Positions 8,243 to 36,181 of a stretch of DNA of 64,000 nt are shown here, piece after piece. Position 1 is the first letter of the stretch. Each line of letters opens with the position of its first letter. The position numbers and the translations under genes were made by a program. This DNA comes from Marivirga salinae (GTDB taxonomy: Bacteria > Bacteroidota > Bacteroidia > Cytophagales > Cyclobacteriaceae). The notes under the pieces were generated by a model. That model was given only the letters and a program-made list of their open reading frames with translations. It ran no database searches and was not told where the DNA came from. The stretch is taken from positions 1,991,501 to 2,055,500 of the forward strand of contig NZ_CP129971.1 in the NCBI RefSeq assembly GCF_030503855.1. The letters run 5' to 3'.

Positions 8243-9542
8243 TTGAAAGCTTCTGTGAAGTATATAGCTGTCATGATTATGGGCGTATTGCTCATCACCA
8301 TCAGTTATTTAACTTTTCGATATGAAAGCTCGCTCCTAATTGGGCAATTTTTAACTCTTTTTGCTCTTTATTTGTTTCTGGCTTTTCAGAAAAAGGAGTT
8401 TTCTCTTAATGAAATAATCACTTTTGGAATACTTTTCAGATTGCTTTTACTGCTTTTGACTCCCAATTTATCAGAAGATGTATATCGTTTCCTTTGGGAT
8501 GGCAAATTATGGTGGGAAGGAATAGATGCTTATGCCTTTTTACCTTCTGAAATTGCCAAGGAAAATATTCTTAAATCCAGAGTTATTTACTCAACTCAAT
8601 TCACCCAATTATTACAGCATTTATCCACCATTAAATCAATTGATTTTTGCTATTGGAGGAATACTTGAAAATACCACTTTGGGCATTATCACCATAAGGC
8701 TGTTTATTATTTCAGCCGAGATTGGAACATTAATTTTACTTCCAAAAGTCTTGATGCAATATGGTAAAGATTCAAATCTCTCACTTTTCTATGCTTTCAA
8801 TCCCTTAGTGATTTTGGAATTAAGTGGGAATCTTCATTTTGAAGCTTTTGTGATTTTCTTTCTGGCTTGGGGAATTTATGAATTTGAAAAAAGAAGAAAC
8901 CATAAAAGCGCTATAGCTTTGGGTTTGGCTATAAGCTTTAAGCTTGTCCCACTTATTTTGTTGGCAGGCTTTTTCAGAAAGCTGCATTTAAAACAATATA
9001 TTAAGTTTATTCTATTGGCTGGTTTAGTTGCAATAGTAAGTTTTCTACCGTTTTTATTTTCCGATGCGCTAAAAGGGATTTCCACTAGTACATCTTTATA
9101 CTTTAAGAATTTTGAATTCAATGCAAGCCTATATTATTTGATCAGGGAAATTGGTTTCGCTGTAAAGGGCTATAATATTATTGGTACAGCAGGTCCACTA
9201 TTAGGAATATTGTCTTTTTCTGCAATGGTAATATTCAATATTCTGGCTTCCTCAAAGATGAAATTGCCTGAAAGGATGTTATGGACATATCTGATTTATT
9301 TCCTATTTGCCACTACAGTCCATCCATGGTATGTTTTACCTATTCTGGTTTTAGGAATCTTAAGTGGTTATAAATTTCCTGTATTATGGACTTTTACAGT
9401 GTTTTTCACCTACTTGGGCTATTCATTAACAGGTTTTCAAGAGTATTTGTGGATTGTTGTTATAGAATACATCTCATTGGTAATATTTATCGTATTTGAA
9501 TTGATACAAAAAAGTAAAAAAAGCAAAAGACTTTATGCTTAA
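8243..9542 (+). pseudogene. Polytopic mannosyltransferase-like membrane protein, split by a frameshift
   Basis: Two overlapping frames encode the halves of one membrane protein. The first (from a TTG at 8243) carries EDVYRFLWDG, typical of lipid-linked-sugar GT-C transferases. It loses sense after about 8593. The second frame continues with NSPNYYSIYPPLNQ and about nine hydrophobic helices to 9542. Skipping one A at about 8593-8594 joins them smoothly as RVIYS then LNSPNYYSIYPP, the expected D/E...YPP arrangement of the family. The join would give a protein of about 430 residues. It starts 1 base after the cellulose-synthase-like gene and overlaps the following gene by 8 bases, so an intact copy is expected. 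This could be a true mutation or a sequencing error. Confidence 0.7.
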
Positions 9543-10044
9543 AATCTGGTTGAATATCATGTTGTTTTCATTTTTACAATCCTTAGTGGCTTGCGGTCAG
9601 CAGACCTATGATCAAAAGCTTCAGTCACTTTATAGTAATACGGTTCCTCTTGTTAAGCCACAAGAAGTAAAAGAAAAGCTTAATAGCAAGGAAGTAGTAA
9701 TTTTAGATACTCGTTCAGCAAAAGAATATAGTATTAGTCATTTACCAGATGCTCAATTTGTTGGTTATGATCATTTTGATATCGAACAAGTTAAAGACAT
9801 TCCCAAAGACAAGGAAGTAGTCGTTTATTGTTCTGTTGGATATAGAAGCGAAAAAATAGGAGAGAAGCTCAAAAATGCAGGTTTTCAGAATGTTAGCAAT
9901 ATGTATGGTGGTATTTTCCAATGGAAAAATGAAGACTTTGAAGTAGTGAACCAAAAAGGACAAATTACCGATAGTGTACATGTTTATAATAAGCGCTGGG
10001 GAAAATGGTTGGAAGAGGGAAAAGGGATTAAAGTTTATGAATAA
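9535..10044 (+). CDS. Rhodanese-domain lipoprotein
   Basis: A signal peptide with lipobox LVAC puts the lipidated cysteine at residue 20. A single rhodanese domain (about 38-135) follows, with LDTRSAKEYSISHLPDA and the active-site loop CSVGYRSE starting at C99. Rhodanese domains transfer sulfane sulfur or serve as sulfur-binding scaffolds. Here the domain would be exposed in the periplasm. The ATG overlaps the end of the split membrane gene and its stop overlaps the next start, so it belongs to the glycosyltransferase operon. The link between a sulfurtransferase and glycan synthesis is not explained by the sequence. Confidence 0.85.
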   Translation: MLKIWLNIMLFSFLQSLVACGQQTYDQKLQSLYSNTVPLVKPQEVKEKLNSKEVVILDTRSAKEYSISHLPDAQFVGYDHFDIEQVKDIPKDKEVVVYCSVGYRSEKIGEKLKNAGFQNVSNMYGGIFQWKNEDFEVVNQKGQITDSVHVYNKRWGKWLEEGKGIKVYE

Positions 10045-26896: not shown

Positions 26897-27895
26897 TTGA
26901 AAAAGAAGAATAGATTATCAATTGAAGAATATAAATCTGGTGTGCTATCAGGAGATAGAGTTGCACTTAGTAGGGCTATCACTTTGGTAGAGAGTACTTT
27001 GGATGAGGATAATGAGCTAGCAGCTCAATTAATAGATGAGTTATACCAATATACTGGTAATTCATTTAGGGTGGGAATTACAGGTGTTCCAGGTGTAGGA
27101 AAAAGCACTTTTATTGAGTCATTCGGCTCTCATATTCTTGCTGAAGGAAAAAAATTGGCAGTTTTAACAATTGATCCCTCAAGCCAAAAAACTGGAGGTA
27201 GCATTTTGGGGGATAAAACTCGGATGGAAAAACTTAGTCAATCTAAGAATGCTTTTATCCGCCCATCTCCATCTGGTGATGCCTTAGGAGGTGTAGCACA
27301 AAAAACAAGGGAAAGCATGTTACTTTGTGAAGCTGCTGGTTTTGAAGTGATTTTTGTTGAAACAGTAGGAGTGGGGCAATCAGAAACAGCTGTAAAAAAT
27401 ATGGTGGATTTTTTCCTTTTATTGATGTTGGCAGGTGCTGGTGATGAACTGCAAGGAATTAAAAAAGGTATAATGGAAATGGCTGATACCATTGCTATCA
27501 ATAAGGCAGATGGAAGTAATATAGAATCAGCTAAAAGAGCAAAAAAAGAATATCAAAATGCATTACATCTATTTCCTGCAAATGAAAATGGATGGATACC
27601 TGAAGTTAAAATATGTTCTGCTTTAGAGGATAATGGATTGTCAGATATTTGGCAACTATTAAAGGAGTTTCAATCTCAACAAAAAGAGTCTGGTTTTTTC
27701 GATCAAAACCGAAAGGAACAATCCGTCCATTGGATGCATCAAACCATTCATCATTTTTTGAAGAGAAACTTCTACAAAAGTCCAGAAATTAAAGAGAATT
27801 TGCTGAAATTTGAAGATGCTGTGAGAAAAGGAGATAAGCACTCCGTTCAAGCGGCTAGAATTTTATTACAGAACTATTTTAATAAACTATCATGA
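26897..27895 (+). CDS. meaB: Methylmalonyl-CoA mutase-associated GTPase MeaB
   Basis: MeaB is the G3E-family GTPase that protects and reloads B12-dependent methylmalonyl-CoA mutase. The P loop is GVPGVGKST (63-71). The segments TIDPSSQKTGGSILGDKTRM, VETVGVGQSE and INKAD are standard. The likely start is a TTG. A 9-codon frame beginning with ATG at 26884 (MEDQLEKEE then stop) overlaps it out of frame. Length 332 is normal. The mutase genes are not in the window. The gene overlaps the next by ATGA. Its nearness to the B12-riboswitch operon fits a cobalamin theme. Confidence 0.93.
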   Translation: MKKKNRLSIEEYKSGVLSGDRVALSRAITLVESTLDEDNELAAQLIDELYQYTGNSFRVGITGVPGVGKSTFIESFGSHILAEGKKLAVLTIDPSSQKTGGSILGDKTRMEKLSQSKNAFIRPSPSGDALGGVAQKTRESMLLCEAAGFEVIFVETVGVGQSETAVKNMVDFFLLLMLAGAGDELQGIKKGIMEMADTIAINKADGSNIESAKRAKKEYQNALHLFPANENGWIPEVKICSALEDNGLSDIWQLLKEFQSQQKESGFFDQNRKEQSVHWMHQTIHHFLKRNFYKSPEIKENLLKFEDAVRKGDKHSVQAARILLQNYFNKLS

Positions 27896-29868
27896 CAAAA
27901 ATATTTACCTTATTTGCTGTTTTAATATCAGTGAATTTAATTGCTCAGACACCTTGCGAAAATGGCGAGGTAGATGGATATCCATGTAATCAAGTAGATT
28001 TTTATGCTAACTTAAACAATTCAGCGCTCTCTGGTACCTCTGGTGTTGGGTCTAATGATATTTGGGGATGGACTGACCCGGAAACCAATACGGAATATGT
28101 GATAATTGGACAAGACAATGGGACTGTATTTGTTGATATTAGTAATCCTTCTTCACCTGTTGTAATTGGAAGGCTTCCTAGCCACACTGGAAACTCTAGT
28201 TCTTGGCGAGATATAAAAGTTTATGATAATCATGCATTTATAGTAGCAGATAATAATTCAGGACATGGTATGCAGGTTTTTGATTTAACCCGGTTAAGAG
28301 ATGCAGGGAGTTCAATAGTGACCTTTGACAATGACGCACATTACGATGGTGTGTCTAGCGCACATAATGTAGTCATAAATGAAGAAACAGGTTTTGCATA
28401 CATAGTGGGTGCTAGAGGAGCTGGAAATGAATGCGGACAAGGTGGCTTGCATATTGTGAATATTCAAGACCCTAAAAACCCAGTTTTTACGGGTTGTTTC
28501 GATGCCGATGGTTATACTCACGATGCACAATGTGTGATTTATAATGGCCCTGATTCTGATTATCAAGGTCAAGAGATATGTTTTAATGCAAATGAAAACA
28601 CTGTTACCATTGCTAATGTTGATGATAAAAACAATACTTCTTTAATTGCGAAGGAAGGATATCCACAGTCTGCCTATTCTCATCAAGGTTGGCTTACAGA
28701 AGACCATAAATATTTCATATCAGGTGATGAATTGGATGAAGGAAATTCAGTTTATAGAACGCGTACATTAGTTTGGGATGTAAGAGATTTAGATAATCCT
28801 GTTTTACTGACCCAATATTATTCTGAAAGGGTAGCCATTGACCATAATCTTTATACAAAAGATGATATGGTATTCCAATCTAACTATACGAATGGATTGG
28901 TTATTTTGGATTCAAAAAAGGTGGAAAATGGAAATTTGAGAGAAATAGCCTTTTTTGATACTTTTCCTCAAGGAAACAATACCGGATTTAATGGGTCATG
29001 GAGTAATTACCCTTTCTTTGAAAGTGGAATAATTGCAGTTAGCGACATTAGTAATGGTCTATTTTTATTACAGCCTAATATAAAGGATATCATTACCGAA
29101 CATCCAAATTTTACTGAATGCGGATCAGGCCAAAAAGTAATAAATGTAAGTGTTGATGCGCAATATGAAGTGGATAACTTTCAGTGGCAAATAATCACGG
29201 AAAATATCCCAAGTGATTTACAAGAAGGAGATAATTTTTCGGGTATAAACACATCTGAATTAACCATAAACTCAATCACTGAAGATATTGTAAATTCTAA
29301 ATTCAGATGTAAAGTTCAGCTTTCAACTGGTGAAATTGCTTATAGTTATCCTTCAAGCCAACCCTCTGGTTTGCCTGAACCTTCTTTTACTTTTAATAGA
29401 TCTGGTGATTTAACGGTAAGTTTCACTAATAAATCTATTAATGCGGATAGTGTTGTATGGGATTTTGGTGATGGTAGTGATTTTTCAAATGAAGAAAACC
29501 CTGTTCACATTTATAATGAATTAAAAGAATATACAGTGACACTTACGGGCTTTAATTTCTGTGGTGAGCAGACTATTTCGGAAAATCTTGGTGCTTCAGT
29601 ATTGAACAATAGACAAGAATTAGGAAAGGATGTTAATATTTACCCTAATCCGGTAAAGGATATATTGAAAATTAAACAGAGTGAAAATTCTAACTTATTA
29701 AGTTTTAGAGTTTTAAATATTTCCGGTCATACTGTTTATGAATCAGGAAAACAGTCAGCAATCATAGCTGATAATATAAATACAGCTGAGTGGAAATCTG
29801 GAATGTATTTAGTTTTATTAACCTTTGAGGATGGTGGTAGAATAGTGAAAAAAATCATCAAGGAATAA
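27892..29868 (+). CDS. Choice-of-anchor B family secreted protein with PKD domain and type IX sorting tail
   Basis: A signal peptide (about 1-20) precedes a region of LVIVD-type repeats (GTVFVDISNPSSPVVIGRLP, GGLHIVNIQDPKNPVFTG, TRTLVWDVRDLDNPVLL). These form a beta-propeller typical of TIGR04312. An Ig-like part and a PKD domain (VVWDFGDGSDFSNEENPVHI) follow. The last 75 residues, from VNIYPNPVKDILK to GRIVKKIIKE, are a type A sorting domain of the type IX secretion system. The mature protein should be released or anchored on the cell surface. Its ATG overlaps the meaB stop, though a functional link is not evident. Confidence 0.88.
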   Translation: MTKIFTLFAVLISVNLIAQTPCENGEVDGYPCNQVDFYANLNNSALSGTSGVGSNDIWGWTDPETNTEYVIIGQDNGTVFVDISNPSSPVVIGRLPSHTGNSSSWRDIKVYDNHAFIVADNNSGHGMQVFDLTRLRDAGSSIVTFDNDAHYDGVSSAHNVVINEETGFAYIVGARGAGNECGQGGLHIVNIQDPKNPVFTGCFDADGYTHDAQCVIYNGPDSDYQGQEICFNANENTVTIANVDDKNNTSLIAKEGYPQSAYSHQGWLTEDHKYFISGDELDEGNSVYRTRTLVWDVRDLDNPVLLTQYYSERVAIDHNLYTKDDMVFQSNYTNGLVILDSKKVENGNLREIAFFDTFPQGNNTGFNGSWSNYPFFESGIIAVSDISNGLFLLQPNIKDIITEHPNFTECGSGQKVINVSVDAQYEVDNFQWQIITENIPSDLQEGDNFSGINTSELTINSITEDIVNSKFRCKVQLSTGEIAYSYPSSQPSGLPEPSFTFNRSGDLTVSFTNKSINADSVVWDFGDGSDFSNEENPVHIYNELKEYTVTLTGFNFCGEQTISENLGASVLNNRQELGKDVNIYPNPVKDILKIKQSENSNLLSFRVLNISGHTVYESGKQSAIIADNINTAEWKSGMYLVLLTFEDGGRIVKKIIKE

Positions 29869-29923
29869 ATTATAGATATCTATTTATCATGGAGGTGAAA
29901 AGAGAATTTTAATACTGTATGGA

Positions 29924-30631
29924 TTATTCGAATTCAGCAAAATAAAATTCGCTTTTCACCTTTTTTATTCCCTCATTTTCTTCAATCTGATATTCATAAA
30001 AGTGCGATTGAATTGATTTTAAATTGATTTTGACTGCATTCTTGAACAGAGGGCCATCATACACAAATGTGTGGAATTCTCCATTTTCTCCGCAAGGGTC
30101 AACATCTTTCGGTAATTGAATGAGGGTATCTTGAGTGATGGTTTTACCTATTATTTCCTTGTTTAATTTAGAAGCATCACCAGCACAAATTTTAGTTTGA
30201 AAGCCTAAATCTAAAAATTCATTGATCACATTCTTTGTATCTTTTTTCCACAGAGGAAACAAGCATTTTATATCTACTTCGGCCATTTTTTCTTCTCTGT
30301 ATTTTTTCAAATCCTCAAGAAAAATATCACCAAAAGCAATGTTGCCAATATTTTTTGACTTACAATAATCAGCATATTCTCTCATGACTTGCTCATATGA
30401 TTTATTGCTTTTACTAGATGGTAAATAACTGATCTTAAGTGGGAGGTTCAAAGAACTTGCTTGAGCTTCAATCAATTCTTTTTTGATCCCGTGCATGCCC
30501 ACTCTATTAGTGTCTTCTCCAATTACTGTATGCAAGTGGTCTATTTCATATTCATTTGATTGGGTTAAATAATGCAATGCCAAACATGCATCCTTACCTC
30601 CACTCCAGCTTAAAGCAATTTTCTTCCTCAT
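29924..30631 (-). CDS. DUF71/COG2102 (Dph6-like) ATP pyrophosphatase
   Basis: This N-type ATP pyrophosphatase has the PP-loop SGGKDA at residues 10-15 and the family segments AFGDIFLEDLKKYREE and GENGEFHTFVYDGP. In eukaryotes and archaea the family makes diphthamide (Dph6). Bacteria have no diphthamide. Comparative genomics of DUF71/COG2102 proposed that a bacterial subgroup acts in B12 salvage. Its place here as last gene of a cobalamin-riboswitch operon behind btuB-like and btuG-like genes matches that subgroup. It lies 3 bases after the DUF3667 gene. The exact reaction is unproven. Confidence 0.85.
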   Translation of the reverse strand: MRKKIALSWSGGKDACLALHYLTQSNEYEIDHLHTVIGEDTNRVGMHGIKKELIEAQASSLNLPLKISYLPSSKSNKSYEQVMREYADYCKSKNIGNIAFGDIFLEDLKKYREEKMAEVDIKCLFPLWKKDTKNVINEFLDLGFQTKICAGDASKLNKEIIGKTITQDTLIQLPKDVDPCGENGEFHTFVYDGPLFKNAVKINLKSIQSHFYEYQIEENEGIKKVKSEFYFAEFE

Positions 30632-30634
30632 TTA

Positions 30635-31618
30635 TTATATCGTTAAAAATGAAATATAGAGCTCAAAAGCAAACCCAAATAGTAAGAGTATAAAATAGAA
30701 AAATCCTAAAATGAAAAATTTAAAAACAGATTTTGCCCAACTGTTTTGATAAAGTCTTTTTATTGAAAAAAGTGTATAGAGGCTCACCCAAATAAAACTT
30801 ATAAAGACTATCCAACCTTCAGCTTTAGAGAAAACACTAATTAATAAAATGGCCAATCCATAAATAAAATAGGCAAATGCATGAAGGTGCAATCCATGGA
30901 TCAGATGTTCCATAAAATACCTTTTCTTCATAAATAAGAGATAAAGTATAAAAGCAAAAATTGGGAGAAAGAAAAACATCATCAAAGGCAGATTTCTAAT
31001 GGCCTGATAAGTAAACATAGAAGAATTTAGTAAAAATGACCTTTTATACTTTGCTGGAATACCTTCGATATTTCCACCTACTTTATTTAGGTTCGCTTCG
31101 AATTCCTCATCACTCAAAGTTTCATCTTCAGCCCAATATTTTAGGGTAGCCCATTTATTAATTGAATCTTCCTTTTTCGCTACTTTATTCTGTTCTGCCT
31201 TTATAATCAGTTGTTGAACTTTAGCACTGTCGAGTTCTTCAACTTTTAGAGAATCCATCATAGGTTTTTGATTGACAATAGATCTTAAAACTGAGTCAGT
31301 CAAATCTTTAGGAACGGTAAGACTAATCATAAAAAAATAGAAAAGGGAAAAAATTAAATACAACCTAATGGGGTTGATGTATCGCCTTCTTTTCCCTTCA
31401 TTAAAAGCCTTGGTAAGCTTTCCTGGCCTGAAAATGAAGGGGTTTAAGGTTTTGAATAAGATTGTATCAAAACTCAGATAATTAGAAAAGAAGTCTTTCA
31501 AAAATGCACCTAAAGCTAGTTTTTTATCGGAATTTTCTTGCCCGCAATTAGAACAAAAGTTTTGGTCAGTTTCTAATTGCTCACCGCAATTAAGACATTT
31601 TTGCAATTTTTCTTTCAA
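30635..31618 (-). CDS. DUF3667 membrane protein with N-terminal zinc ribbon
   Basis: The N terminus is a CxxC...CxxC zinc ribbon (C8, C11, C22, C25). The DUF3667 signature follows with FFSNYLSFDTILFKTLNPFI and RRRYINPIRLYLIFSLFYFF. About five membrane helices are visible (100-118, 212-232, 240-262, 265-285, 300-323), with a charged soluble loop between about 120 and 200. The family is widespread in Bacteroidota and uncharacterised. Within this operon it sits between the DUF5522 gene and the DUF71 gene, so a B12-linked membrane role is possible but inferred only from position. Confidence 0.8.
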   Translation of the reverse strand: MKEKLQKCLNCGEQLETDQNFCSNCGQENSDKKLALGAFLKDFFSNYLSFDTILFKTLNPFIFRPGKLTKAFNEGKRRRYINPIRLYLIFSLFYFFMISLTVPKDLTDSVLRSIVNQKPMMDSLKVEELDSAKVQQLIIKAEQNKVAKKEDSINKWATLKYWAEDETLSDEEFEANLNKVGGNIEGIPAKYKRSFLLNSSMFTYQAIRNLPLMMFFFLPIFAFILYLLFMKKRYFMEHLIHGLHLHAFAYFIYGLAILLISVFSKAEGWIVFISFIWVSLYTLFSIKRLYQNSWAKSVFKFFILGFFYFILLLFGFAFELYISFLTI

Positions 31619-31671
31619 TTTTTCTTTCAGTTAGCTTATCACGAAAGTAAAAAATAAAATGAAACTTTGTG

Positions 31672-31830
31672 TTATTTTTTTGCTTTCACATTTTTATACT
31701 GGAAGGGGCAATGTCTGCATTTATTTCCACAGCAATAACCTCTTTTTAAATGATATTTTTCAGTGAAAACGAAAAAGCCATTTTCCATATAAAAATCATC
31801 GTTCTCTATTTTTAAATTTTTTGCACTCAT
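31672..31830 (-). CDS. DUF5522-type small cysteine motif protein, 52 residues
   Basis: This gene was found by reading the gap between its neighbours. The protein has GYCCGNKCRHCPF (C33, C34, C38, C41) after a short FVFTEKYHLKRG segment, the pattern of the DUF5522 family. The clustered cysteines suggest zinc or iron-sulfur binding. Its ATG overlaps the thioesterase stop as ATGA, strong evidence of translational coupling. Its function is unknown. Confidence 0.85.
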   Translation of the reverse strand: MSAKNLKIENDDFYMENGFFVFTEKYHLKRGYCCGNKCRHCPFQYKNVKAKK

Positions 31831-32216
31831 GTAATTAAAATTGGTTTCTTATTTTCATCTATAGCTACCATAGTAAAACAGCCTGAAATGGATTTTTCTC
31901 TGTGGTTGGAATACATTTCTTCTGTAAAAACATCCACTCTAACCTCTAAACTGGTATTACCTACTTTTTCTATTTGACCAACTAATTCCACTATGGTTCC
32001 AGCAGGAATTGCTTTATTGAAGTCAATTTTATCACTGCTAACCGTCACCATTTTCTGTCTTGAATAACGGGTGGCCGTAATAAAAGCCACCTCGTCCATC
32101 CATTGAAGGGCAGTTCCTCCAAATAGCGTATCATAATGATTAGTCGTATTTGGAAAAACTGCCTTGGTTACTTTTGTAATGGCGTTATCTGCCTTATTTC
32201 CTTTAGTTACAATCAT
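31827..32216 (-). CDS. Acyl-CoA thioesterase, hot-dog fold (YciA-like)
   Basis: This 129-residue single hot-dog domain hydrolyses acyl-CoA thioesters. Typical segments are NHYDTLFGGTALQWMDEVAF, with the catalytic Asp, and VTVSSDKIDFNKAIPAG. It is coupled to its neighbours by ATGA overlaps at both ends: its ATG with the stop of the beta-propeller lipoprotein, and its stop with the DUF5522 start. Why a thioesterase sits in a B12 operon is unclear; cobalamin-dependent methylmalonyl-CoA metabolism is one possible link. Confidence 0.88.
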   Translation of the reverse strand: MIVTKGNKADNAITKVTKAVFPNTTNHYDTLFGGTALQWMDEVAFITATRYSRQKMVTVSSDKIDFNKAIPAGTIVELVGQIEKVGNTSLEVRVDVFTEEMYSNHREKSISGCFTMVAIDENKKPILIT

Positions 32217-33262
32217 CTATCTCTTTCGATGTTAAAAGAAAATTGAGTAGGGGCAATTCCAGACTCAAATGTATCCAGTAGTTCTCCTTCTGCATCATAG
32301 CGAATCACTAGGCCTTCACTCGAAAAATCTAGGGCGTCACCTAAGTAAAAATCTCCTGAAACTGGATCAACAGCGAAAGCATAAGGAGTTTGCATTTCAA
32401 CCTCAATTCCTGTTGAGCTAATACTATTATCTGAAATATTTAAAAATGAAATTTCACTACCCGAGTAAAAATAGATAGCACCTTCATGTGAGTCAATATC
32501 ACCTAATACTGAATTATCCAGTTCAATTTGATTTGCAATGCCTGTTAAAGATGCACTTAATTGTATCAAGTTTCCGCTAGTGCAAACCACCCAAACATTG
32601 CCGTTATCATCTTCTGTTATTTCTTTTGGGCTGCTTGGAACCTCAAGAGTTTCTTCTATTTGTAAGTTATCAAGATTGATAATAGATATTTCGCTAATGC
32701 TTCCATCAAAGGATGCGTGGCTTACAATAAGTTTGTTGTTTTTAATAAAAAGATGTTCAGGATATTCCTGAGTTTCAATACGGTCTACTAATTCATTTGT
32801 ACTTAAGTCTACAACAAATATTTCACTATTCGTTAACGCAAAATTTTCATTGTAAGGGCCCCAATTTGCAATAAAGGCTAAGCCATCCAATACAGCAATA
32901 TCCCTTGGTTTATCTAATTCAGGGAAACTGATTTTTGCTTCTGATTTTAAGTTTGAAGTCATTATATCAATGGAATTACTTCCGTTCAATACACTGTAGA
33001 TTCTGTCATTATTATTATCCACTAAAATATTTTGTTGAACATCTCCAATAAAGCTGCTGTTTTGACCTCTGTAAAGTGAAGCATTATAATCATAAGATTC
33101 AGGATCATAATTACCAATGGTTGCATTATTGCTTCCAAATGCCCCTTCATGATATACGTAAACTCCTGCTGTTTTGAGTTCTATATCCTCAGTGTCATCA
33201 CAAGCTGAGAAAATGAATAGTGCAACAATTAAGTTGATTAAAATTGAATAATTCTTTGTCAT
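32213..33262 (-). CDS. Surface beta-propeller lipoprotein, BtuG-like (YncE/DUF5074)
   Basis: A lipobox (FSAC, C21) is followed by acidic residues, consistent with outer-membrane surface export. The remaining 325 residues are seven or so repeats of a YncE-type beta-propeller (for example SNLKSEAKISFPELDKPRDI, NGNVWVVCTSGNLIQLSAS). In Bacteroides the lipoprotein BtuG, a propeller of this type encoded beside btuB, binds cobalamin very tightly and hands it to the receptor. The location here, 1 base after a btuB-like gene behind a cobalamin riboswitch, supports the same role. Direct sequence orthology to BtuG was not tested. Confidence 0.75.
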   Translation of the reverse strand: MTKNYSILINLIVALFIFSACDDTEDIELKTAGVYVYHEGAFGSNNATIGNYDPESYDYNASLYRGQNSSFIGDVQQNILVDNNNDRIYSVLNGSNSIDIMTSNLKSEAKISFPELDKPRDIAVLDGLAFIANWGPYNENFALTNSEIFVVDLSTNELVDRIETQEYPEHLFIKNNKLIVSHASFDGSISEISIINLDNLQIEETLEVPSSPKEITEDDNGNVWVVCTSGNLIQLSASLTGIANQIELDNSVLGDIDSHEGAIYFYSGSEISFLNISDNSISSTGIEVEMQTPYAFAVDPVSGDFYLGDALDFSSEGLVIRYDAEGELLDTFESGIAPTQFSFNIERDR

Positions 33263-33263
33263 G

Positions 33264-35150
33264 TTAATTAAATTTAAATTTTCGGGTTATACTGAGTTGA
33301 TAATTTCTACCAGGCATTGCATAGCCTGAGTAGAGGAAATATTCTGAGTTAAATAAATTCTTTGCTTTGACTGATAATTGCCAAGAAGTTGATTGCCAGT
33401 TCAATCCAAGATCGGATAATAAAAATGGCTGAAGGGAAAATAAATCTGAGTTATTATTGGTAGTGTAAACTTTTCCAGTCCATCGCTGGAAAATATCTAA
33501 TGAAAAATTCATCCAAGAAACGGAAGCAGATGCATTTGCTTTATGTAAAGGCGTATAGATTAATTGTTTGCCAACCTCATTAGTGTTCGTTTCACTTTCC
33601 AAAACTCTGGATTGCGTATAGCTATATTGCAAATCTAACTCAAACCATAATTCATTATAAATAGGGAAATGAATTCCTGCTGTTGTTTCAATCCCTTTTG
33701 CCAGTACTTTTTTTATGTTTCTAGGTCGCCATTGATTGTTTTCATCTGGTATCCACTGAATCCAATTATCCACCTCATTATGATAAGCGGTCACCGAAAA
33801 GTCTACTTTGGTTTTATCCCAATTATGATTTGAATGAATAGACGCTTCTTTATTCCATGCTGTTTCTGAATTCAGTTCCGGATTTCCGGCTTCGTTCCAG
33901 AACCGATCATTTAAAGTAGGAAGTCTGTAGTTGTAAGAAGTATTTAATTTAAGATCGAGTTGATGATTTTCAGTTCTGAATAGTTGATGTGAAATCCCCG
34001 CATACGGAGAAATTGGAATATTAACTTCTGGTACCAATTGTTGTCTCAAATGCACGGCATAATCAAAGTTCCTCCATATTTCTCCTTTAAATAAAGCACC
34101 TAAACTATAGCGTTGTTCAGTGGCACCACCGCCTGCGTAATTTTGATTTTTCGCATCAATATAATTGTATCGAGCTGATAATTTTAGCTGATGTTTAATG
34201 GAGATTTGATATTTATAGTCAGCGAAGCTTTCCCATCTATCTACTTTATAATAAGAAATAGCCTGGTTCAATCGATAATCCATTTCATCCATGAAGTAGC
34301 CAGTCCCAATAGTTAGACTGCTTTTTTCTCCCATTTTTTCAAAGTTAAGATGTGTCCTTAGGTTTTGATCTGTTTGCTCGTTTACATCTCTGGTAGATCC
34401 TATTGGAGGTTGAATTTCCCTGAAGTTGTCATTATACCAAATCGCTAATTTTATTTTTTCAGTATTTCTGATTTTATAGCCGATGCTTTGGTTTATCCCC
34501 CATCTTTTAAATCTTGCATTATCCTGTTTTTCACCAGTTTGTAAAATTTCAAAATCATTTTTGGCTTTTCCCCAATATAACTTAGTGTCATAAGCCCATT
34601 TGCCGTTACTGCCATTTGCATTTACATTACTATTTAACAATCCAAAACTACCGATTTGCTGCCCGATAGATAATCTATTTCCTTTTTTGAATGAAAGTGG
34701 ATTTTCCAATAAAACAGCACCACCAAATGCACCACTTCCTCCCATGCTGCTGCCACTTCCCGGAATGATGGATATTTCAGAAATGGCTTGAGAGGGTATT
34801 AAAGAAAAATCAGTTTGGCCTAGTGTGAAACTATTGATGTTGAAATTGTCCCAAAGCACTGCGGTTTGGCTGGCATTGGTGCCGCGGAAGGCTATGGTTG
34901 TGAGCATTCCATTTCCGTATTCCTTGAAATAAATACTGCTGTTCTGCTTTAAAATTTCGCTAATATTAGCGCCATCGTAGAAATTCAGTGTTTTGGCTTT
35001 GGGCAAAATAATAGTATTACCATGCAAAAATTGTTTTTCAAAATGGCCTTGCACAGACACTTCTTCTAACACAGGAATACTGTCCTGATGGTTTTGTGCC
35101 CATAGTTCATTGGAGAACCATAGCAATAAAAATAAAGCACCTAATCGCAT
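33264..35150 (-). CDS. btuB: TonB-dependent cobalamin receptor, BtuB-like
   Basis: The 628-residue protein has a signal peptide (LGALFLLLWFSNELWAQ), a plug domain (about 30-150, with IPVLEEVSVQGH near the TonB box position and GSGSSMGGSGAFGGAVLLEN) and a 22-stranded barrel ending in LSITRKFKF with a terminal aromatic. There is no carboxypeptidase-like N-terminal extension, so it resembles BtuB rather than SusC. The specificity call comes from the cobalamin riboswitch directly upstream. It is the first gene of a six-gene reverse-strand operon. Confidence 0.9.
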   Translation of the reverse strand: MRLGALFLLLWFSNELWAQNHQDSIPVLEEVSVQGHFEKQFLHGNTIILPKAKTLNFYDGANISEILKQNSSIYFKEYGNGMLTTIAFRGTNASQTAVLWDNFNINSFTLGQTDFSLIPSQAISEISIIPGSGSSMGGSGAFGGAVLLENPLSFKKGNRLSIGQQIGSFGLLNSNVNANGSNGKWAYDTKLYWGKAKNDFEILQTGEKQDNARFKRWGINQSIGYKIRNTEKIKLAIWYNDNFREIQPPIGSTRDVNEQTDQNLRTHLNFEKMGEKSSLTIGTGYFMDEMDYRLNQAISYYKVDRWESFADYKYQISIKHQLKLSARYNYIDAKNQNYAGGGATEQRYSLGALFKGEIWRNFDYAVHLRQQLVPEVNIPISPYAGISHQLFRTENHQLDLKLNTSYNYRLPTLNDRFWNEAGNPELNSETAWNKEASIHSNHNWDKTKVDFSVTAYHNEVDNWIQWIPDENNQWRPRNIKKVLAKGIETTAGIHFPIYNELWFELDLQYSYTQSRVLESETNTNEVGKQLIYTPLHKANASASVSWMNFSLDIFQRWTGKVYTTNNNSDLFSLQPFLLSDLGLNWQSTSWQLSVKAKNLFNSEYFLYSGYAMPGRNYQLSITRKFKFN

Positions 35151-35253
35151 AAAATTGAGTTTAATGCGACCACGGTCAAAATCAGATGTAAAAAAGTTAG
35201 CTTATAGCTTTCGTACATTCCTGACCTTTCACCCGAAAGTCGAAAATAGTTAT

Positions 35254-35421
35254 GAGCTATGGCAGGTCTCCTGACTCGTCCGTTGAAGTTGCGGCCTTCC
35301 CATCAGCCGAAAGGCTAACAGTGGCAAGGGTAGTGCACTTCAATTAAAAATGGACTTACAGTTGCGGGGACAGTTTCGGAATATTGGTCTCAAAAATTAA
35401 AACCAAGCACCGAATTCCCTT
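35254..35421 (-). promoter_or_regulatory. Cobalamin riboswitch
   Basis: On the reverse strand the conserved blocks appear in order: a GAATTCGGTGC stem with its return strand ATTCCGAAACTG, then CCCCGCAACTGTAAG, GCCACTG, GGGAAGGC and the B12-box-like end GACGAGTCAGGAGACCTGCC. Together they define the adenosylcobalamin aptamer. A hairpin (GACTTTC/GAAAGGTC, about 35222-35243) downstream may be part of the expression platform. It stands about 100 bases before the btuB-like gene and should repress the operon when B12 is plentiful. Confidence 0.93.
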
Positions 35422-35536
35422 TTAATTCTGAAGGAATGAAATCCAACAGAAACCATAATTCTTCAACAAATGTAGGGGAATGAAATCTGAAATCAAATTT
35501 TAATTCTTTAACTTTATTAATTAAAATGTTTGCGCA

Positions 35537-36181
35537 GTGAAAATAGTACCTATGTATCCTGACCCCTACAAGCTCAAAATCCATTTGGAGCATACGGATA
35601 TATATAGAATAGTTTTAGTACCCTCCTTCATTAATATGCTTCAACTTCATTTGGTTTGCCAAGAAGCTATGGGTTGGATGATGGCACATTTATTCACATT
35701 TACAGATAAAAAAGGATCTACAGCTAGAATTAAGGCAGGCTTACCAATTGAAGATTTACCATTTTTATCAGGACCTAAGGAAATAAAAGCAGATAAAGTC
35801 AAGTTAAATGAATTTCATGAGATCACGGGTGGAAAATCGTTTTGGTATTGGTATGATTTCGGAGATGATTGGTGGCATAAAATAAGTTTCCAAAAACCTA
35901 CTAAAAAGGACTTGGAATTATATAGTGGTACTCCAGTTTGTTTAGATGGAAAAAAAGCTTGCCCACCTGAAGATATAGGTGGAGTAGATGGTTATTTGCA
36001 CTTCTTGAAAATTATAAATGAAAATACCCAACCTGATAAAGACGAATTAATGGATTTTTATGGCTTTATGGAAGGAGATGTTTTTGATCCAGAGTTTTTT
36101 GAAATTGACTTTATTAACGAGGAACTGACGGAAATAATGGAATGGGATGAATGGAATAAAACGGCTGACGATTTTATTTGA
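35537..36181 (+). CDS. Plasmid pRiA4b ORF-3-like protein (PF07929)
   Basis: The 214-residue protein shows the family features KIHLEHTDIYRIVLVPS, MGWMMAHLFTF near residue 50 and YWYDFGDDWWHKI near 112, with PPEDIGGVDGY near 152. These proteins are annotated as pRiA4b ORF-3 or IS1096 passenger TnpR-like and have no established activity. The frame opens with GTG; an ATG five codons in (35552) is an equally good start. No transposase is nearby. It converges with the LysR gene. Confidence 0.8.
   Translation: MKIVPMYPDPYKLKIHLEHTDIYRIVLVPSFINMLQLHLVCQEAMGWMMAHLFTFTDKKGSTARIKAGLPIEDLPFLSGPKEIKADKVKLNEFHEITGGKSFWYWYDFGDDWWHKISFQKPTKKDLELYSGTPVCLDGKKACPPEDIGGVDGYLHFLKIINENTQPDKDELMDFYGFMEGDVFDPEFFEIDFINEELTEIMEWDEWNKTADDFI

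Follow-up and report, generated by a model that had tools for sequence, protein, structure and literature searches.

A cobalamin riboswitch precedes six genes in Marivirga salinae

We analyzed a 64-kb stretch of the Marivirga salinae genome (contig NZ_CP129971.1, positions 1,991,501 to 2,055,500; hereafter the window) in which a cobalamin riboswitch is followed by six reverse-strand open reading frames (ORFs). In order of transcription these are btuB, a btuG-type propeller gene, and genes for a thioesterase, a DUF5522 protein, a DUF3667 protein, and a DUF71 protein. The whole unit is probably a B12-starvation operon. Two assignments within it can be tested: riboswitch linkage, salvage clusters, and fusions in several phyla connect DUF5522 with B12, and the thioesterase is placed among the B12-starvation genes. 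Sequence comparison establishes the riboswitch, the promoter, the gene order, the linkage of thioesterase and DUF5522 to riboswitches across families, the fusions, and the motifs.

The features of the locus, in window coordinates, are as follows.

35496 to 35467, reverse strand: promoter TTG-N19-TACATTTG, of the Bacteroidota -33/-7 type
35244 to 35472, reverse strand: cobalamin riboswitch aptamer (RF00174, 103 bits, E value 1.1e-24)
35144 to 35170, reverse strand: hairpin with the btuB start codon in its 3' arm, a possible expression platform (from genus comparison)
33264 to 35150, reverse strand: btuB, TonB-dependent corrinoid receptor (Pfam, solved relatives)
32213 to 33262, reverse strand: btuG-type propeller lipoprotein (profile match; lipobox-like ...FSAC with Cys21, by eye)
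31827 to 32216, reverse strand: hotdog acyl-coenzyme A (acyl-CoA) thioesterase of a riboswitch-linked ortholog group (4HBT in Pfam, genome comparison)
31672 to 31830, reverse strand: DUF5522 protein (PF17653), 52 residues, RGxCCxxxCRHCP motif (Pfam, 78.2 versus 25 bits)
31642 to 31649, reverse strand: TACTTTCG, a -7-like element and possible weak internal promoter (genus gap alignment)
30635 to 31618, reverse strand: DUF3667 protein with N-terminal zinc-ribbon-like cysteines and a TTG start (PF12412, 57.5 versus 27 bits)
29924 to 30631, reverse strand: DUF71 protein of the B12 subgroup, SGGKDA and ENGEFH motifs (Diphthami_syn_2 in Pfam, motifs)

The aptamer scores 103 bits against a gathering threshold of 31.5, spans the full model (positions 1 to 189), and is the sole Rfam match at that threshold in the window. 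The initial annotation, made from the letters of this DNA, had recognized the riboswitch and ended the element at 35421; the aptamer match reaches about 50 bases further, to 35472. The promoter sits where the match has its 5' end; from 29901 to 35700, the operon strand has no other strict match. Its arrangement, with a spacer of 19 or 20, is present in all nine Marivirga loci inspected, the window included; the -33/-7 consensus used to type it is what we take to be that of Bacteroidota. From a tenth genome of the genus (G001, 86% complete), neither riboswitch nor DUF5522 was recovered. The arms of the start-codon hairpin are kept in eight of the nine genus loci and shortened in L070. The hairpin belongs to the consensus fold, from which the single-sequence fold of L071 deviates, and the window leader folded alone is not significant (z score of -1.60). 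Control at the btuB start codon would fit this hairpin.

The order of riboswitch and genes described by the initial annotation holds, as does the tight packing it noted (a 1-base gap, ATGA overlaps, and gaps of 3 to 53 bases): the successive junctions, recomputed, measure +1, -4, -4, +53, and +3 bases. Pfam assigns the six ORFs to the TonB receptor, DUF5074, 4HBT, DUF5522, DUF3667, and Diphthami_syn_2 families, each above its own cutoff. Co-regulation is best supported from btuB to DUF5522 and less so for DUF3667 and DUF71, because a conserved TACTTTCG lies in the gap before DUF3667, although that gap has no strict promoter match.

The first two genes form a BtuB/BtuG pair

The receptor has a TonB plug and barrel, and its closest solved relatives are B12 receptors: 8bmx_C (172 bits), in an entry that also contains a BtuG-type chain; 8p98_A, "Vitamin B12 transporter BtuB" (158 bits); and 1nqf, "Vitamin B12 receptor" (44 bits). 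It falls below the cutoff of the NCBIfam BtuB equivalog TIGR01779 (104.2 versus 599.7 bits). A profile of eight propellers, the one in the window included, matches 8p97_B at 226 bits over positions 1 to 341 of 343 and 3dsm at 209 bits; 3DSM is given as a BtuG structure in the consulted part of PMC6143338. The propeller gene beside btuB thus has both the BtuG profile match and the lipobox, and its product is predicted to bind B12. The earlier identification of the first two genes as a capture pair is supported on both sides, by the solved BtuB relatives and by the propeller profile.

The riboswitch, BtuB, and an adjoining BtuG propeller lipoprotein are common to this locus and the Bacteroides btuB-btuG riboswitch loci, as far as the consulted parts of PMC6143338 and PMC10404256 describe them. 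Unlike those loci, the one studied here continues with the thioesterase, DUF5522, DUF3667, and DUF71. Within the main-text portions consulted, the word "thioesterase" is absent from both papers, and "DUF" is absent from PMC6143338.

The thioesterase belongs to a riboswitch-linked ortholog group

The thioesterase matches solved acyl-CoA hydrolases, and its family assignment goes no further than the 4HBT superfamily. It shares the 4HBT family with YciA/ACOT7-type hotdog thioesterases but lies below the YciA NCBIfam equivalog cutoff (42.9 versus 162 bits) and belongs to an ortholog group of its own. This group (62 to 100% identity, at least 165 bits) is present in 21 of 59 related genomes; all other matches in the 59 genomes reach at most 84 bits. 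We counted a gene as linked if a cobalamin riboswitch preceded it by no more than 7 kb in the same orientation (Infernal run with stricter filters); all counts in this study ignore phylogeny. The orthologs were linked in 18 of the 21 genomes and the paralog matches in 0 of 62. Outside Marivirga, linked orthologs occur in 9 of 12 genomes, the nine being spread across five families (f1, f3, f4, f9, and f15). An apparent loss of the gene in G002 proved to be an artefact of ORF picking, since tblastn finds it there at 83% identity.

The ortholog is found in two kinds of riboswitch unit with recognizable B12 genes. It is part of btuB operons in L078, L079, L208, L211, and L213, and it stands behind metE, the gene for B12-independent methionine synthase, in L209, L210, and L212, where MetE was confirmed with Pfam. 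A third arrangement, in L207, is a riboswitch-PAS-thioesterase unit. Cobalamin-riboswitch metE units control a B12-independent isozyme; the thioesterase follows metE in those three loci, whereas in the window it belongs to an uptake operon.

These data bear on an alternative in which the thioesterase has an ordinary housekeeping role and merely adjoins B12 genes. The family is common and broad, and three of the 21 orthologs (G020, G025, and G052) are not riboswitch linked, which also counts against a B12 assignment. The contrast between 18 of 21 orthologs and 0 of 62 paralog matches, in uptake and metE operons alike, nevertheless makes a housekeeping neighbor very unlikely, and membership of the thioesterase in the B12 regulon is highly likely. 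The initial annotation had suggested that the thioesterase, if co-regulated, would be a new B12-dependent or B12-processing function. The link to B12 stands, but because the gene joins both uptake units and units for a B12-independent isozyme, it is better read as a B12-starvation gene. The genome itself holds three ORFs with an MM_CoA_mutase domain (747, 620, and 1,144 residues, the last IcmF-like by length only). Because of these, relief of CoA trapped when B12-dependent mutases stall is our leading suggestion for the enzyme, a possibility to which we give slightly less than even chances.

Two observations concern neighbors of this gene in other units. A further cobalamin riboswitch, the second in this genome (G000:C1:3644643-3644833, reverse strand, corresponding to L063 15644-15834), precedes a PAS-domain gene (L063 14816-15391, reverse strand), and PAS proteins 40 to 42% identical to its product stand directly ahead of the thioesterase in the riboswitch units L207 and L209. 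The PAS proteins behind cobalamin riboswitches may form a B12-regulated sensor family. The riboswitch operon L213, which also has the thioesterase, encodes a DUF6580 protein (9061-9618, reverse strand) between btuB and DUF71.

DUF5522 is linked to riboswitches and B12 salvage genes

The fourth gene encodes a small cysteine-rich protein. An alignment of 62 DUF5522 sequences, comprising that of the window, 47 of a set of 105 proteins, and 14 domains taken from loci, shows no variation at the glycine and the four cysteines of RGxCCxxxCRHCP and, by a 90% count, hardly any at R, H, and P. The window protein has no signal peptide by eye and is therefore probably cytosolic. A search of solved structures found no relative at E values up to 1.

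Among the 59 relatives, DUF5522 is present in 44, a cobalamin riboswitch in 53, and both in 43. DUF5522 is linked to the riboswitch in 18 of these 43 genomes, against a chance expectation of about 0.045 with 5-Mb genomes assumed. Nine of the 18 are Marivirga; the other nine belong to f1 (six), f4 (two), and f12 (one, G047, in which the link spans a run of N). In four more relatives (L084, L087, L096, and L110), DUF5522 lies beside DUF71 with no riboswitch on the contig.

Salvage genes accompany DUF5522 in several loci. In L117, DUF5522 is the first gene of a cluster that also contains CobU, DUF71, CobT, and CobS, and the divergent Peripla_BP_2, FecCD, and ABC genes are read as BtuF-BtuC-BtuD. 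The order in L072 is a btuB piece, DUF71, DUF5522, CobU, and DUF71, followed by members of the DBI_PRT (CobT) and CobS clusters. L074 and L077 resemble it, CobU being known there by its start sequence only. Across a 395-genome set used for co-occurrence counts, DUF5522 and CobU lie no more than 1 kb apart in 18 of the 23 genomes with both, and all 18 belong to one genus. Genes of the BtuF family adjoin DUF5522 in L124, L125, L130, and L134, and in L084 one stands between DUF5522 and DUF71.

We also scanned named genomes for DUF5522, keeping the best 80 of 585 loci as ranked against a fusion-derived sequence; an Rfam scan covered 50 of the 80. DUF5522 and DUF71 share one ORF in 11 of the 80 loci and, by Pfam, in L119, giving 12 fusions. 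The records of the 11 come from Rhodothermales, Nitrospinae, Gemmatimonadetes (six), Myxococcota, Gammaproteobacteria, and "bacterium." Both domains were confirmed with Pfam in L119 and L126 and by custom profiles and alignment in the remaining cases. All 12 fused DUF71 domains retain the SGGKDS loop and E[NH]GEFH. In L138 (Planctomycetales), DUF5522 forms the tail of a BtuF-family protein adjoining DUF71, with a cobalamin riboswitch ahead of the DUF71 domain, and in three verrucomicrobial loci (L150, L154, and L159) the DUF5522 ORF follows a cobalamin riboswitch at a distance of about 1 kb. A regular expression for the B12 box had missed the riboswitches of L150 and L138 and was replaced by Rfam. 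ORFs were taken as the longest ORF, a crude choice that over-extends starts in GC-rich loci such as L126.

Further arrangements were noted in passing. Cys_rich_CWC and DUF5522 share a single frame in L150, L154, and L159. Between btuB and the propeller gene, L115 (3587-4651, forward strand) and L139 (491-1555, forward strand) have a single reading frame that combines DUF5522 with a hydrophobic segment and a domain that looks secreted. An apparent DUF5522-propeller fusion in L080 was rejected, since a run of N had produced it.

The role of DUF5522

Several observations weigh against a role of DUF5522 in B12 metabolism. It is without a riboswitch link in 25 of the 43 relatives with both. Of the 50 Rfam-scanned loci, four have a cobalamin riboswitch (L138, L150, L154, and L159) and 46 do not, the latter including all 11 fusions of the named-genome scan, and the fusion share of 11 in 80 is itself inflated because the search query came from a fusion. 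Outside Bacteroidota, a B12 signal is absent from most DUF5522 loci. The 82 same-strand neighbors outside the listed Bacteroidota loci include no dominant family, the commonest being Peripla_BP_2 with three. In seven loci (L083, L086, L089, L093, L099, L104, and L105), DUF5522 has a member of the L28 (rpmB) cluster no more than 1.5 kb away on its own strand, and in four it is near an SRP54-domain (FtsY-like) cluster; each cluster was identified through one annotated representative. Structure models also leave the cysteine loop unresolved. The model of DUF5522 alone, of low confidence (predicted local distance difference test [pLDDT], 65.6; predicted template modeling score [pTM], 0.38), shows a hairpin and a helix followed by that loop, and its quality was insufficient for a fold search. 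The model of a fusion (pLDDT, 82.9; pTM, 0.75) recovers the archaeal DUF71/N-type ATP pyrophosphatase fold and is uninformative for the DUF5522 part.

The L28 and SRP54-domain neighbors, the lack of a dominant neighbor, and the few riboswitches outside Bacteroidota would be expected if DUF5522 were a general small metal-binding protein, for example a translation- or zinc-linked one, that hitchhikes in B12 loci. The variety of its arrangements with B12 genes, fusions included, across families and phyla speaks against such a protein, which we consider improbable.

The close association with DUF71 raises a different explanation, in which DUF5522 serves DUF71 alone, as an accessory subunit with zinc or another metal, and borrows its B12 links from that partner. 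The fusions are in keeping with this, as are the 14 clustered DUF71 copies in 13 loci around DUF5522, all of which share its strand and lie within 1.5 kb (one as a fusion), and a co-occurrence odds ratio of 3.2 across the 395 genomes, a figure that ignores shared descent. However, DUF71 was not found in 9 of the 18 riboswitch-linked DUF5522 genomes (two of these, G033 and G047, are 88 to 89% complete), nor in 59 of the 109 DUF5522 genomes of the 395-genome set. A bare DUF71 subunit was rejected on the nine linked genomes, and DUF5522 must therefore have a DUF71-independent task. We regard a role confined to DUF71 as unlikely, if somewhat less so than hitchhiking.

We conclude that DUF5522 likely acts in corrinoid salvage or handling. 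The earlier suggestion that it represents a new B12-linked function agrees with the riboswitch linkage, the CobU-CobT-CobS cluster, and the DUF71 fusions. The motif would fit a site at which a thiol or a metal contacts the cobalt of the corrin, and it would also fit a docking domain held together by metal, with neither chemistry strongly favored; thiolate-cobalt chemistry in particular is a tentative proposal that we would not expect to hold. To our knowledge, how bacteria treat corrinoid on its way from the inner membrane to the enzymes is poorly understood, and the literature searched holds no mention of DUF5522 or PF17653. A broader and still more doubtful idea is that DUF5522 is a widespread, unnamed corrinoid handler: a small thiolate protein that, working with DUF71 and a BtuF-like carrier in the cytosol, would bind the ligand on the cobalt of imported B12 or strip it off, its domain kept in animals as an unrecognized B12-trafficking factor. 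The human protein that we take to carry a DUF5522 domain, with the CCxxxCRHC motif, is C1orf53. If it truly does, the bacterial context would hint at a role for an uncharacterized human gene. In the consulted part of one source, C1orf53 is listed among uncharacterized genes observed as transcript only.

DUF71 and the question of corrinoid remodeling

The last gene had been assigned to the DUF71 subgroup proposed for B12 salvage, and this assignment is upheld. As described in the consulted part of PMC3541065, the subgroup has an ENGEF/YH motif replacing EGGE/DxE and B12 gene neighbors; the window protein has both the motif and such neighbors. It falls below the cutoff for Dph6 (NCBIfam TIGR03679; 91.3 versus 197.3 bits). 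The PP-loop, the motif, and clustering with B12 transport genes are common to the window and the subgroup as the consulted text presents it. The window differs in that its genome lacks matches to CobU and CobS, and elsewhere DUF71 is fused or paired with DUF5522.

In that source, so far as consulted, DUF71 is proposed to substitute for CbiZ: it would cleave other cobamides and thereby allow cobalamin to be rebuilt. The ENGEFH motif and the place of the gene in a B12 uptake operon accord with this role. Yet searches for CobU and CobS, which did not extend to CobT or CbiB, gave no match in this genome (99.99% complete), although they were positive in 6 and 10, respectively, of 14 control genomes. 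Further, 86 of 110 DUF71 genomes are without CobU at an E value below 1e-30, a count in which some DUF71 may belong to other subgroups. The product could thus not be rebuilt by the known route, which argues against a CbiZ-like role for the window protein and puts the published role to the test; for this gene we consider it rather improbable. DUF71 may instead be an amide ligase whose substrates are corrinoids with damaged side chains; such an activity would match the ligase chemistry of Dph6, to which it is related.

DUF3667 is probably a passenger

Outside Marivirga, DUF3667 has no match in the loci scanned with custom profiles. It was rejected as a B12 gene on this genus-only occurrence and is probably a passenger; a B12-related function is very doubtful. 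The gap between DUF5522 and DUF3667 measures 42 to 62 bases in all eight genus loci having DUF3667, and TACTTTCG is kept in seven of the eight gaps while its flanks diverge. The three middle genes, which the initial annotation had treated together, accordingly part ways in the survey of gene order behind riboswitches: DUF5522 (18 of 43) and the thioesterase (18 of 21) are linked to B12, and DUF3667, confined to the genus among the loci scanned and set behind this gap, is not.

The persistent gap and the conserved element within divergent flanks would be expected if the last two genes, DUF3667 and DUF71, were transcribed separately, from a promoter of their own and free of B12 control. Against this, the gap contains no strict promoter match, and in L073 and L072 DUF71 lies directly behind btuB. 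A separate unit has perhaps one chance in three.

A proposed B12-starvation operon

Taken as one unit, the operon would work as follows, with B12 repression and all chemistry of its products being what we infer. When corrinoid is scarce, the unliganded riboswitch would permit production of btuB, and the tightly joined btuG, thioesterase, and DUF5522 genes would follow. BtuB and BtuG would capture the corrinoid. The thioesterase would free CoA from propionyl- or methylmalonyl-CoA, which would accumulate when a B12-dependent mutase is without cofactor. DUF5522, as a cytosolic four-cysteine protein that elsewhere is joined to DUF71 or a BtuF-like binder, may handle the imported corrinoid after entry, by ligand removal or hand-over. 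DUF71 would be an ATP-using amide-chemistry enzyme on corrinoid side chains.

Two forward-strand genes flank the operon on its downstream side. The gene for the methylmalonyl-CoA mutase chaperone, meaB (26897 to 27895), is convergent with the operon and is also found nearby in eight genus loci (L064 to L071) and in L073 to L076. Between meaB and the operon lies a gene for a choice-of-anchor B protein with a type IX secretion system tail (27892 to 29868), homologs of which occupy the equivalent place in the same eight genus loci.

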